DNA of 42,607 nucleotides from a virus. The notes beneath the pieces are model-generated. The model saw only the letters and a list, made by a program, of their open reading frames with translations, was not told where the DNA came from and did no database searches. A program made the translations under genes and the position numbers. Of the stretch, positions 2,454 to 36,327 are shown one piece after another (position 1 is the stretch's first letter; every line of letters starts with the position of its first letter). Location of the stretch: the IMG/VR virus record IMGVR_UViG_3300020202_000133, positions 1 to 42,607 of that record, one strand, 5' to 3'.

Positions 2454-3108
2454 GGGAGATCCCACGACAGGCCCAGTGGGGCCGCATGAAACACCGTCCT
2501 CTGCCTGCCCCTCTACGGCTCCGGCGGTTGGTGCCCCTGTCGACGTATCAGGAGGCCCCGATGCCCCCCCGAAGCCACCCCTACGACTAAACAAGAAGGG
2601 ACAGCCCGATGGGAGATACAAGAATGGGGGATATCGACCGGGAGCAGGTATCAAAAAGGGAACGCAGCTCCGCACCAAGCGCACTTACAACGCGGATGCC
2701 CTAGCCGAGGTTGTTGTGAACAAAATCATCACCGGGAAGCCCATCGCCCCCACACCCCAAACCGGCCCCATAACCAAGGAAACCCACTCCACGCTCACCA
2801 GAATTGCCGGGGAATCCATGGCAGTTTTCGACGCCCGCATAGCTGAAAAGCTATCCCGCATCGCGGACAAACTCGCCGACCAGATTGAGGCCACCGTTGA
2901 TGGGGGGAAGTTTAAGCCGGGCGAACTCGGCTTCATCTTCTCGGTGATGCACGACAAGCGCCAGTCCCTCAACGGCCGCACCTCCCTCCAAAACGCCTCC
3001 ATAAACGTAGTCGTAAACAACTTCGGCTCCGCCCCCAAAGAACAACTCCTCTCCGAGCTCGATGGGCTAACCCACGCCAAAAACGTAACCGAGGTCCCCA
3101 CCGCATGA
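2443..3108 (+). CDS. DNA-packaging small subunit candidate, 221 aa
   Basis: One of the few plus-strand genes with a Shine-Dalgarno sequence (AGGAGAGG, about 6 bases before ATG). Residues 1-50 are disordered and Pro/Gly-rich. Residues 55-70 are basic (KNGGYRPGAGIKKGTQ), followed by a helical region and a C-terminal VVVNNFG segment. Its length and the order disordered-basic-helical fit a small terminase or DNA-binding protein, but it lies 3.7 kb from the large terminase and no clear helix-turn-helix is visible. The call is tentative. Confidence 0.35.
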   Translation: MVREGDPTTGPVGPHETPSSACPSTAPAVGAPVDVSGGPDAPPKPPLRLNKKGQPDGRYKNGGYRPGAGIKKGTQLRTKRTYNADALAEVVVNKIITGKPIAPTPQTGPITKETHSTLTRIAGESMAVFDARIAEKLSRIADKLADQIEATVDGGKFKPGELGFIFSVMHDKRQSLNGRTSLQNASINVVVNNFGSAPKEQLLSELDGLTHAKNVTEVPTA

Positions 3109-4559: not shown

Positions 4560-4883
4560 ATGAAACAGATTCTCCTGTTCCTGCTGGTTGTCGGGGTGGT
4601 TTTTGCCGCCCCAGTCAAGAAGGTCGGCCCCGCGGAGATCCAGAAGGTCGTTCAGTCGGCGATTCCGGGGTGGCTCGCTAAGAACCCTGTGGCCGAGAAT
4701 AATACCGGCAAGCCATCGAAGCTAATTTCCGTGACGGTGACGAGCTGCGACCCGGTTCCGGGGTGGACGGACACCTGGAGGGTTTCGGGTAAGGTAAAAC
4801 TAAGCAGCGGGAGCCGATCGTTCGACGCCCGCGTCTCAACCAAAGACGGGATAAAGGTGACCGATATCAGTCTTGGATTTTAG
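4560..4883 (+). CDS. secreted small protein with Sec signal peptide, 107 aa
   Basis: MKQILLFLLVVGVVFAAPVKK is a clear Sec signal: Lys, a leucine/valine core and an FAA-P cleavage site near residue 17. The mature protein is about 90 aa with a helix (EIQKVVQSAIPGWLAKNP) and a beta-rich rest with one cysteine. The composition suits an exported or periplasmic protein carried as lysogen cargo. Its end overlaps the convergent 4867-5049 gene by 17 bases. No family recognised. Confidence 0.75.
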   Translation: MKQILLFLLVVGVVFAAPVKKVGPAEIQKVVQSAIPGWLAKNPVAENNTGKPSKLISVTVTSCDPVPGWTDTWRVSGKVKLSSGSRSFDARVSTKDGIKVTDISLGF

Positions 4884-5049
4884 GGGAGGGTTCGGGAAGG
4901 GTCTCCCGGGCCTTGATCCATTCCTCCCCGATCTTCTCCAGTCGTTGAATGGCCATCAGAAGGGAATGCCGTTCTGCCGGGAGGATGGGGGCGCGCTGGA
5001 GAACCGGGACGATCAGGTCCAGGCAGTCTTTGGGTGTTAGTTCGTTCAT
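4867..5049 (-). CDS. small helical protein, 60 aa
   Basis: MNELTPKDCLDLIVPVLQRA begins an all-helical, acidic protein. Its ATG overlaps the stop of the methyltransferase gene as ATGA, so it is the last gene of the 6762-4867 cargo operon. It may be a partner of the enzymes upstream; the function is unknown. Confidence 0.65.
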   Translation of the reverse strand: MNELTPKDCLDLIVPVLQRAPILPAERHSLLMAIQRLEKIGEEWIKARETLPEPSPKIQD

Positions 5050-5648
5050 GGTTTGCGGATGATCCAGTGGGGGTCTTGCGTTTTGAAATTGAGGTTCATC
5101 TCACAGGAGAAGCGAATGACGGCCGCAAACACCCCGGAAAAGACAAGATGGTCGTCCCCGAACATCACGCCGCCTTTCTCCAGCAGGGGCCAAAAGTTCT
5201 TCAAGTCTTGGTAGCAGTCCTCCATGTGGTGCGAGCCATCGATGTAGATGAGTTGGGCTGTGGTTCCCTTGTGGGCCAGGTATCTCGCCCCGTCCGAAGA
5301 AGTCATCGGATAGGGGGTAATCTGGTCATGTAACCCAGCCGCCTTCACGTTTGTGAGGAATTGGTGGTAGAGTTGCGACCCACCCCACTTGTCCCGTGGA
5401 ATCTTATCTCCGTTGATCAGGTGATAGACATCACCCAGCCAGGTATCGACACAATGGACGTGGGAATCGTAGGGCCTTCCTAGTCTGGCCATCACCATGG
5501 CCGAAACCCCCTTCCAGGAACCGACCTCGATAATGGTCTTGGGCTTCAGCTCATCGATCAGTTCCTCGAAGATTGGGGCGCTCGAGGAGTGCCAGGTCTG
5601 GTTATCTACGGCGAGCCCCATGGACTCGATGTCGTCATAGGGGTTCAT
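5046..5648 (-). CDS. SAM-dependent methyltransferase, class I, 200 aa
   Basis: Motif I is visible as TIIEVGSWKGVSA (residues about 34-46), followed by HCVDTWLGD (acidic residue binding the ribose) and LIYIDGSHHMEDCYQDL (post-II region, typical of Methyltransf_24 and cephalosporin-hydroxylase-like proteins). This group usually methylates small molecules or sugars rather than DNA. It is ATGA-coupled to the glycosyltransferase-like gene upstream, which suggests joint work on a glycan or nucleotide-sugar. The substrate is unknown. Confidence 0.85.
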   Translation of the reverse strand: MNPYDDIESMGLAVDNQTWHSSSAPIFEELIDELKPKTIIEVGSWKGVSAMVMARLGRPYDSHVHCVDTWLGDVYHLINGDKIPRDKWGGSQLYHQFLTNVKAAGLHDQITPYPMTSSDGARYLAHKGTTAQLIYIDGSHHMEDCYQDLKNFWPLLEKGGVMFGDDHLVFSGVFAAVIRFSCEMNLNFKTQDPHWIIRKP

Positions 5649-12457: not shown

Positions 12458-13456
12458 ATGATTGCAGCCACCTACAACACCGCCGGCGACCGTGAAGACC
12501 TCACGAATGCGCTGACGATTCTCACCCCGGAGGACTGCCCCAAGACCAGCACGTTCTCCAAGTCCACCGATGCATTCAACATGCTTCACGAGTGGCAAAT
12601 GGACACCCTTCTCCCCGTCACGTTTTCGGGCGTGGTTGAAGGCGCCGACGTTTCGAGCTTCACGGATCAGGTTGCCCAACGCGCTCGTGTTGGCAATCGC
12701 CAGCAACTTTTCAGCCGCACCTGGGCTGTGTCCCGTAGCCAGATGGCTTCGGACCCGGCTGGTGTGACGAACGAAGTTGCGAACTCGAAGACGAAGGCTG
12801 CTCGCGAGATGAAGCGCGACATCGAGGCGATGATCGGCTCCGACAACGACCTCCAGGTCGGTACGGGCCTGGTTCCCTCGAAGTGCCGAGCGCTTGGCAA
12901 GTGGATCTCCACGTCGCCTGGTTCCGATGTTCCGCCCACCTACACGACTCCCGCGGCCTCGATCTCGACGGCCACCTCTGGCGCTCTGACGGAATCCGTC
13001 TTCAACGACGTGTTTCAGTCGATCTTCCAACAGGTCGGTGGTCGTCGCAACTACACGCTGTACGCGGGACCGACCCTCAAACGGTCCATCTCGAAGTTTC
13101 AGCGCAACGCCTCGGGCACCACGGCAACGCAGGTCTACTTGGTCAACCAGGACGCTACGCAGCATCAAATCGACCTCAACGTCACGATCTACGAGGGCGA
13201 CTTCCACCACGTCGTCATCATGCCGGACATGTTCAACGGCCTGACCGACGGCGCGAATCCGCAGACGGTCACGGCGCAGCAGCAGAACCGCGGCTACGTT
13301 ATCGATCCGGACCTCGTGGCGATCAGCTACATGTACGGTGTCGAGCCCGTGGAGCTGCCTGACTTTGGCGGCGGCCCGAACGGCTACCTCCGTTGCTCGC
13401 TCACCCTCGAAGTCAAGAACCCGCTCGGCCTCGGCAAGTTTGCCGGTGCGAGCTAA
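12458..13456 (+). CDS. major capsid protein, SU10/DUF5309-like, 332 aa
   Basis: The start at ATG 12458 is one base after the scaffold stop; the longer in-frame opening upstream lies inside the scaffold gene. MIAATYNTAGDREDLTNALT, then VGNRQQLFSRTWAVSRSQ and the helical KAAREMKRDIEAMIGSD (spine helix), followed by a P-domain-like beta region and YMYGVEPVELPDFGG near the end, fit the HK97-fold capsid proteins of the SU10 (DUF5309) group. GC-rich, optimised codon choice differs from its neighbours, as expected for the most abundant protein. Confidence 0.85.
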   Translation: MIAATYNTAGDREDLTNALTILTPEDCPKTSTFSKSTDAFNMLHEWQMDTLLPVTFSGVVEGADVSSFTDQVAQRARVGNRQQLFSRTWAVSRSQMASDPAGVTNEVANSKTKAAREMKRDIEAMIGSDNDLQVGTGLVPSKCRALGKWISTSPGSDVPPTYTTPAASISTATSGALTESVFNDVFQSIFQQVGGRRNYTLYAGPTLKRSISKFQRNASGTTATQVYLVNQDATQHQIDLNVTIYEGDFHHVVIMPDMFNGLTDGANPQTVTAQQQNRGYVIDPDLVAISYMYGVEPVELPDFGGGPNGYLRCSLTLEVKNPLGLGKFAGAS

Positions 13457-32773: not shown

Positions 32774-33055
32774 ATGGATAGCGCAACAGACAGGTTCGCC
32801 AGCAACGTCTTTGAATCTCTGGGCGAAATGTACCGCATAACAATGGATGTCCTAGATGCGAAGGAGCGCCTTCGCTCGGCCACAGAGTTAACCTCTGTCT
32901 ATCCGTTCCGCCAGTTCGGACAAAACCGGTTTCGCGGATTCGTGGGAAGTTTACGGCTGGGTTGTGACAGCGTTATGTCAGGACCGCTCCGAAAAGTTAT
33001 CCACAATCGGCAATGGGGTGTTGAACCCACACTGATCTCGGGCGGTTCCCAATAA
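32774..33055 (+). CDS. possible small gene, 93 aa
   Basis: MDSATDRFASNVFESLGEMY and RITMDVLDAKERLRSATELT look like a genuine helical protein for about 45 residues; the rest is less convincing and runs over a DnaA-box-like site. It may be a short gene with a read-out tail or non-coding. No ribosome-binding site. Confidence 0.35.
   Translation: MDSATDRFASNVFESLGEMYRITMDVLDAKERLRSATELTSVYPFRQFGQNRFRGFVGSLRLGCDSVMSGPLRKVIHNRQWGVEPTLISGGSQ
32997..33005 (+). promoter_or_regulatory. perfect DnaA box
   Basis: TTATCCACA matches the classic DnaA box. Near copies occur at 33062-33070 (ATTTCCACA-like) and 33204-33213 (AATCCACA). Alone a 9-mer may be chance, but the cluster of CCAC words from 33001 to 33266 makes an origin or regulatory site worth testing. 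Confidence 0.35.
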
Positions 33056-33146
33056 ACCCACGATTTCCACAAGCTGCCACAAAACCTAAAATTAGCTCGG
33101 AATGGTAAACCCCAGTAGGGTCCACCATCCGTGCCGCAAATCGTCA

Positions 33147-33163
33147 GCTTGTGACTCACAAGC
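33147..33163. promoter_or_regulatory. 17-bp palindrome before the integrase
   Basis: GCTTGTGACTCACAAGC is a perfect palindrome with one central base, 12 bases before the integrase ATG. It is a likely operator for a repressor or an integrase-related site. The rest of 33056-33175 holds no gene I can support. Confidence 0.6.
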
Positions 33164-35109: not shown

Positions 35110-35140
35110 GGTAGTAATTTTCTTCTTGATTGGGTAGTTG
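35110..35140 (-). promoter_or_regulatory. two ACTACCC elements at the border of the structured stretch
   Basis: On the minus strand, AACTACCCA (35140-35132) and TTACTACCCA (35119-35109) lie 23 bases apart, just after the stop of the 34713 gene. They are direct copies in the same orientation and mark the left border of the 35159-35846 structured stretch. Confidence 0.5.
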
Positions 35141-35158
35141 TTCTCCCCATTGCTTCTG

Positions 35159-35846
35159 CCCGTTGCGAGGGCATTCGCGGCGAGAACTTTCCTTGAAGGG
35201 AGACCTTCCAGAGAGTCCCGGTTCTGAGGATGCCCCCTCGGCCGGGACTTCTGCTTTTGTAGGCCCGATGTTCTTTCTCTGTTGAGGGGCGGCGAGCGCT
35301 CCCACCGTGGGTTGCCCAGTCGGGGTGACATGGCAACATCTGGCCCCGCACTCTTTTGAGTGGCTGACGAGCATTACGCGAAACGCCGCAAGGCGTCCCG
35401 TGGAGTCTCCCAAGCGGGGGAATAACTGGAGACCTAGACCCGACACTTCCCTTGGGGGTCGCTATCGTACGAATGGCGGGCCCCAAGGGATAAACCCACG
35501 ATGAAAGCCCTCGCGCCGCCCTCTACAGAGAACGAACGTGAATCAACAGGAGCCGTGGGGAGCATCGCCCACAAAAAAGAGGGTGCCTTTCGGGTCAGTG
35601 TTCAAGCCGTAGCCCTTTCACGCACGTTTTCAGCTACGGGAAGTCCGGGGGAACTCCGGGCAAAGGGAAATCAGGGGGTGCCAACTATGGCCGGTCGTCC
35701 TCGCCGGTCGAAAAGACATCCAGCTAGCCGTGATGAGTTTCACGGATGGGCCTCACTAAAACGAAGGATGCTAGATCCGATCGACGCTTACTCCCCGGAT
35801 AGCCAGGGAGGAAAGCGTGCTGGGCTCTACTAAAACGAAGTTCAAG
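35159..35846 (+). ncRNA. candidate large structured RNA, about 690 nt
   Basis: No convincing gene, but at least ten perfect stems in order: GAAGG/CCTTC with a GAGA loop (35196-35209); AGTCCCGG/CCGGGACT with an inner GAGG/CCTC (35215-35250); GTTGCC/GGCAAC (35312-35338) interlocked with CGGGG/CCCCG (35322-35349), a pseudoknot; CACTC/GAGTG with TTTT (35350-35363); ACGCC/GGCGT with a GCAA loop (35384-35397); GTCTCC/GGAGAC (35406-35434); a 10-bp stem TCCCTTGGGG (35449-35491); GTGGG/CCCAC (35555-35572); CCGTAGC/GCTACGG (35607-35639); CCGTGA/TCACGG (35728-35745); ACGCTT/AAGCGT around CTCCC/GGGAG (35784-35818). ACTAAAACGAAG repeats at 35755 and 35829. It may belong to large ornate phage RNAs (GOLLD or ROOL type), an intron, or something new; strand is inferred from the GNRA loops. 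Confidence 0.6.
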
Positions 35847-35853
35847 ACGAACA

Positions 35854-36327
35854 ATGAATAGAAGGGAGAAGTACTCGGAATACCTGCTGGGGGAACACTG
35901 GAAGGCTCTGAAAGTTTCAATTTATCGGAGCAGAGGAAGGAAGTGCGAGGTGTGCGCGGCTGTGGACAGAATACAGGGGCACCATCTCACGTATCGTCCC
36001 AATCTAGAGTCGTGCACGGAGGAAGATATCATGCTTTTGTGTTCGCGGTGCCACGAATTGGTGCATCGCGATGCCGAACTTGATTCTTTTTTTCGTGGGG
36101 CTGCCGACAATGCCACCAAGCGACGTGCGGTTATCGAGCATTTGACCAAGGCAATGGGAGGGGTGAAGCGCCTCAACAAACTCCGTTGCATTCGCGAAGA
36201 AGGTTACACCAAACAGCGCCAGCAGCTAGACTATCGGCCGCCGCTTCGAGAAGCCCGCCCACGAAAAAAATGGCTGGATTACGCACCGGAAAAGTTTCCG
36301 GAGCCATCATCGTCTTGGTGTTCGTGA
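35854..36327 (+). CDS. HNH endonuclease, 157 aa
   Basis: MNRREKYSEYLLGEHWKALK leads to CEVCAAVDRIQGHHLTYRPN (CxxC plus GHHLTY, the first HNH residues) and LCSRCHELVHRD (CxxCHxxVH). The second half is basic and may bind DNA or RNA. It starts eight bases after the structured stretch. HNH genes travel with introns and some structured RNAs, so the two may form one unit. Confidence 0.87.
   Translation: MNRREKYSEYLLGEHWKALKVSIYRSRGRKCEVCAAVDRIQGHHLTYRPNLESCTEEDIMLLCSRCHELVHRDAELDSFFRGAADNATKRRAVIEHLTKAMGGVKRLNKLRCIREEGYTKQRQQLDYRPPLREARPRKKWLDYAPEKFPEPSSSWCS

Follow-up and report, generated by a model that had tools for sequence, protein, structure and literature searches.

A conserved double-pseudoknot RNA of phages and plasmids with an embedded hammerhead motif, most likely a self-nicking element

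The virus record IMGVR_UViG_3300020202_000133, analysed here over its whole length of 42,607 nucleotides (hereafter the window), contains at 35159-35846 a hairpin-rich stretch without a convincing gene, which raises the question of what this stretch encodes. The original prediction saw in it one large structured RNA of about 690 bases, comparable to GOLLD or ROOL and perhaps of a new class. Comparison with shuffled sequences showed that the + strand of 35120-35860 folded far below expectation (z -8.2, and -3.3 for the minus strand), which agrees with strong structure. The excess was centred on 35278-35531 (+; z -6.4), the outer parts were weak (35110-35277, z -2.8; 35690-35853, z -2.1) and 35532-35690 showed no excess folding over shuffles (z +0.8). 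The proposed length did not hold, as the conserved unit comprises only about 144 bases (see below). A GAGA tetraloop (35200-35203) and repeats of ACTAAAACGAAG (at 35755 and 35829), which had also been pointed out, are present as letters. The region at about 32901-33150 (-), immediately upstream of an integrase-like gene, gave the second strongest folding signal (z -5.1) among the sampled positions of the window.

A sensitive DNA search revealed noncoding matches in the Arthrobacter phages Karkharias and Constance, in Mycobacterium phage Gaia and in an Enterobacter phage, all of them confined to the middle of the stretch. A covariance model (R1) built from 26 other members, with both the window and its nearest relative L033 held out, matched exactly 35305-35448 (+) with 114.7 bits (E 1.7e-29). 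When the window was compared with the collected loci by BLAST, no alignment extended past about 35293-35453 among the matches listed, not even for L033, the nearest relative among these matches, which shares 90% identity over 145 bases and is unrelated beyond. Thus, the unit measures about 144 bases, and 35305-35448 (+), comprising a scaffold and a hammerhead, is almost certainly a member of an undescribed RNA family of phages and plasmids.

Searching the stretch against Rfam 15 at E<=10 returned nothing but two chance-level scores to unrelated families, and GOLLD, ROOL, group I and II introns and HEARO, all named as candidates, were absent even at this threshold. The idea of a large ornate RNA of the GOLLD or ROOL kind over about 690 bases could draw on the strong folding energy of the stretch and on the tRNA-island habitat that the family shares with GOLLD; yet the missing match to either model, the limited extent of conservation and the structureless segment 35532-35690 make it very improbable. 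The GOLLD model worked as a control, finding a true GOLLD as a separate gene in the tRNA island of one relative (L045). Equally improbable is that the HNH gene at 35854, which had been predicted to be part of the unit, serves the stretch as a mobile intron or RNA-guided element. An HNH gene does follow the element here, and one also lies downstream of it in Karkharias and Constance, without detectable relation to that of the window. However, HNH-like frames were near only 2 of 64 non-redundant relatives among the matches listed (one within 1.2 kb downstream, one upstream), no intron or HEARO model matched, and the element is intergenic; an HNH partnership was therefore rejected. A scan of viral contigs revealed no relatives of the window's HNH protein or of the upstream protein.

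A protein-coding reading was likewise rejected: relatives keep the RNA helices and not a reading frame. Two frames in the window, 35307-35504 and 35501-35833, have a third-position G+C of 0.59 and 0.50, compared with 0.67-0.74 in most phage genes measured; it should be noted that the HNH gene itself reaches only 0.58, so that composition is a weak argument against coding. No Pfam match was found for the longer frame (35501-35833). Hypothetical-protein genes have been deposited that overlap or touch the element in Constance (gp67 and gp68; L005 3877-4076), Pappous (CDS0014; L162 3013-3129) and Gaia (gp147; L003 3049-3342). Those inside the element are probably spurious, and Gaia gp147 touches only its 3' end.

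The alignment divides the element into two similar halves, whose coordinates, all on the + strand, were checked in the window. Half 1 (35305-35349) comprises C and CGUGGG, hairpin A, AUCUGG and strand D5, and half 2 (35398-35444) comprises C and CGUGGAGU, hairpin C, GAAUAACU and strand B3; between them lies a linker (35350-35397) that carries the hammerhead and is absent or decayed in some relatives. Helix A pairs 35311-35316 with 35332-35337, and its loop (35319-35324) pairs with the 3' tail of half 2 (35439-35444), forming helix B. Helix C pairs 35405-35410 with 35428-35433, and its loop (35414-35419) pairs with the tail of half 1 (35344-35349), forming helix D. A thus crosses B and C crosses D, giving four helices in two crossing pseudoknots, and all four are complementary at the expected places in the window. 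The family order is N-CGUGGG, hairpin A with strand B5 in its loop, CAUCUGG, strand D5 and the linker, followed by N-CGYGGAGU, hairpin C with strand D3 in its loop, GAAUAACU between D3 and C3, ACC and strand B3. Both halves are accordingly built alike, from a conserved NCGYGG and a hairpin with a loop that pairs to the opposite half's 3' tail, and this topology suggests an internal pseudo-dimer. An H-type pseudoknot proposed earlier was right in its hairpin (35311-35316/35332-35337), but covariation assigned other partners to its remaining strands, joining the loop at 35319-35324 to 35439-35444 and the downstream 35344-35349 to 35414-35419. The best version of a pairing between this loop and the nearby downstream strand was complementary in only 62% over the family and was rejected in favor of helices B and D.

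These assignments were examined in a scaffold alignment of 65 divergent non-redundant members among the matches listed, from which the linker was cut out. On the basis of this alignment, 94.1% of cells in the four helices were paired (68.1% when shuffled), and the covariation score was 0.648, compared with 0.165 after shuffling and at most 0.143 when partners were slid, these shuffle controls ignoring the relatedness of members. Within the same 65 members, helix A was 99.5% paired with double changes in five of its six pairs, helix B 80.9% paired on the sequence alignment with double changes in all eight family pairs, helix C 100% paired with double changes in three pairs, and helix D 99.2% paired with double changes at its three variable pairs; overall, changes on both sides occurred in 19 of 26 scaffold pairs. 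An unguided column-by-column scan of mutual information gave a similar picture, 14 of the top 15 column pairs being predicted base pairs. Because the relatives were collected via a half-2 pattern, GGAGU and GGGGAAUAACU are invariant in part by design, which does not apply to helices A and B, to those portions of C and D that vary, or to the hammerhead. With compensatory changes so abundant, the idea of a structured RNA of an apparently new class is borne out.

The linker revealed a second layer of conservation. In 69 relatives among the matches listed, a type I hammerhead core was found in register: CUGAnGA was exact in 67 of these 69 members and GAAA in all of them, and the scissile site was UH throughout, with U invariant and H17 being C, A or U, never G. 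The core of the window (35360-35401, +) is in register as well, with CUGACGA, GAAA and GUC. It consists of stem I (35360-35363/35398-35401), CUGACGA (35364-35370), stem II (35371-35379), GAAA (35380-35383), stem III (35383-35396) and H17 (C35397), which by the hammerhead rule UH^ places the predicted self-cleavage site between C35397 and C35398. The GCAA tetraloop noted previously (35388-35391) is present as letters, and its hairpin is reassigned as stem III. The first bases of half 2 form one strand of stem I, which changes along with them; in Gaia, U3/A8 stand in place of C3/G8, by which the pair would be kept. We consider it likely that the hammerhead is active in the family, and somewhat less so, though still more likely than not, that the copy in the window is active too. 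On paper the latter is weak: stem III has five pairs, stem I four (two G-C and two wobbles), and stem II two pairs plus A.C. Natural hammerheads often have a stem II of only two pairs (PMC3088659). At 35349-35362 of the window, a CACUC-UUUU-GAGUG hairpin, also present in L033, could compete with stem I. The Rfam hammerhead models had no match in the window, and an Enterobacter relative (L004) scored 28.7 bits, below the gathering score of 34, which is a cut-off of the model and not a mechanistic feature.

Some members have no ribozyme at all, their linker being one to a few bases long, and keep the scaffold; in L036 the hammerhead has decayed with all scaffold helices intact. Thus, the scaffold probably functions without cleavage and has a role of its own.

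A further regularity connects the two halves. The base before CGUGGG is identical to that before CGYGGAG in 64 of the 65 members among the matches listed (C in 37, G in 23, U in 3 and A in 1), the exception being L110 with A/G; a second exception, L161 (also A/G), was found after this count. This coupling, which differs from ordinary base pairing, ranks seventh of all column pairs; the other 14 couples in the top 15 are predicted base pairs. It might be explained by strand exchange on a common partner or by a contact at the pseudo-two-fold axis. The former leads to a ribozyme switch, in which the scaffold, a bound tRNA or a ligand would set the partner of the stem I strand: pairing to half 2 would permit the cut, pairing to the equivalent bases of half 1 would prevent it. 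In hammerhead members, the stem I partner base complements both identical bases (C/C/G, G/G/C, U/U/A in L165 and L184, and A/A/U in L148, a relative of L161), as such a switch would need. However, identity was also kept in 18 of 18 ribozyme-less members among the matches listed, where no such strand exists, and L110 and L161 break it; we regard a switch as unlikely. If it were true, the phage would use the state of the scaffold, perhaps coupled to tRNA, to decide whether a transcript is nicked, and the enforced identity of two repeat bases would be a trace of strand exchange.

Two scans of IMG/VR with the half-2 pattern gave at least 100 loci. Carriers of the element include phages of Mycobacterium, Arthrobacter, Enterobacter, Pectobacterium and Microcystis, many metagenomic viruses and Acinetobacter plasmids. 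A scan of prokaryote genomes yielded 16 contigs, several of which were chance matches; the family is therefore regarded as borne mainly by phages and plasmids. Searching isolated phages with the AT-rich member of L045 found nothing. In T7-like Enterobacter phages (L004, L016 and relatives) the element is circularly permuted: half 2 precedes half 1, the halves are joined by a hairpin, and the new ends lie inside the hammerhead linker. The same permuted arrangement was found in a Pectobacterium phage and in the Acinetobacter plasmids; in an Aquitalea phage-plasmid the halves stand in their usual order. On large Acinetobacter plasmids (11 plasmid records matched), a tRNA-Asn is followed directly by the permuted element, as seen in L183 (5885-6140; A. 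baumannii plasmid pAbNCIMB8209_134) and L182. One locus, L141 (2562-2877, -), contains the element in two tandem copies.

Neighboring tRNA genes were counted against random positions in the same loci. Among the matches listed, a same-strand tRNA lay within 100 nt in 11 of 37 non-redundant hammerhead members (1.1 expected), in 6 of 19 ribozyme-less members (2.6 expected) and in 1 of 8 permuted members (0.7 expected), and antisense tRNAs within 250 nt were absent from every class. Many ribozyme-less members reside in large tRNA islands, and many relatives lie away from tRNAs. The element abuts an upstream tRNA in L002, L003, L027, L081 and L107, where the T-loop motif ends 11-12 nt before N, which places N two bases past the acceptor stem; a tRNA directly follows strand B3 in L027, L054, L081, L091, L117 and L121. 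In the M. abscessus phage phiGD24-3, tRNA-Ser ends at 2902, the element occupies 2903-3050 and tRNA-Trp starts at 3053. The sequences directly upstream of the element in L002 (3943-4004) and L003 (2843-2909) are tRNA-like, with a T-arm and acceptor-like pairing; ARAGORN called neither, and that of Gaia is annotated as tRNA-Ser. The tRNA island of L045 also contains GOLLD and a permuted tmRNA (4754-5180 and 12697-13051), and L037 and L075 carry tmRNA.

No tRNA lies near the element in the window, and no promoter-like site was found. According to the minimum-energy fold of 35278-35531 (+; z -6.4), the element may instead be closed by a long, near-perfect outer stem (35278-35294 with 35514-35531), which has no homologues and is thus specific to the window. 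A shorter stem beside the core (35296-35304/35453-35462) could close the element instead, but it did not exceed shuffles (p 0.41) and was rejected. Of 57 linear members among the matches listed, 28 had an outer stem E above shuffles (p<=0.05), and this stem is therefore optional in the family.

Taken together, the element is most likely a self-nicking RNA of mobile elements, and on balance we favor the following proposed mechanism. The scaffold would fold as the transcript emerges; each hairpin loop would reach over to the 3' tail of the partner half, and the two crossed pseudoknots thus formed would lock the molecule. The type I hammerhead embedded in the linker, with stem I borrowing the first bases of half 2, would then cut between C35397 and C35398, leaving a 2',3'-cyclic phosphate and a 5'-OH, and helices B and D would hold both halves clamped after the cut. 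Such a device could serve to divide long transcripts of phages or plasmids, above all between tRNAs, and at the same time to protect the ends that the cut creates. This processing or insulating, end-protecting role is put forward tentatively, and it is no more probable than an RNA that acts in trans on a host target. In that case the scaffold would bind the ribosome, RNA polymerase, an RNase or a defence factor that attacks tRNAs; the hammerhead would do no more than mature or trim it, and flanking tRNAs would supply its ends. The many invariant unpaired bases (CGUGGG, CAUCU), the loss and decay of the ribozyme with an intact scaffold, the co-occurrence with GOLLD, tmRNA and large tRNA islands, and plausible excision via tRNA processing where tRNAs abut both sides all fit a trans-acting RNA. 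On the other hand, the hammerhead has been kept in most sampled members and in many lineages, which is more than a trimming device would need.

As for known systems, the self-nicking element shares its catalytic core, UH rule and three stems with the type I hammerhead (RF00163), including the phage hammerheads of Perreault et al. (2011; PMC3088659), but here a conserved double-pseudoknot scaffold surrounds the core and contributes one half of stem I. The hammerheads of phages PaP3 and Bcep176, tested in that study, were considered as family members and rejected: the scaffold motif is absent, and the held-out covariance model had no match in either phage. Theta ribozymes, which are HDV-like, are likewise self-cleaving RNAs beside phage tRNA genes, for which a role in tRNA processing has been suggested (PMC10879173); they have another fold and cut at the tRNA 3' end, whereas the cut predicted here lies mid-spacer. 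The topology of helices A and B recalls HDV P1/P2, yet none of the HDV-type Rfam models matched the element, and an HDV-like fold was rejected. GOLLD (RF02032) and ROOL are also phage RNAs that favor tRNA islands, but they are unrelated in sequence and structure and several times larger. Hammerhead cores combined with pseudoknots are also known from the non-circular permutations HRIMA-1 and type SGC (PMC10085705), where the order of the core itself is changed; in the present family the core is arranged as in a classic type I hammerhead, and it is the scaffold around it that is permuted. Neither Rfam 15 nor the freely accessible literature searched describes the scaffold. Hammerheads in phages are a kind already known, and what is new is the scaffold, which is apparently undescribed. 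The family provides a case of natural circular permutation, includes members suited to laboratory work and links two questions: for what purpose phages keep tRNA islands, and how they use hammerheads.
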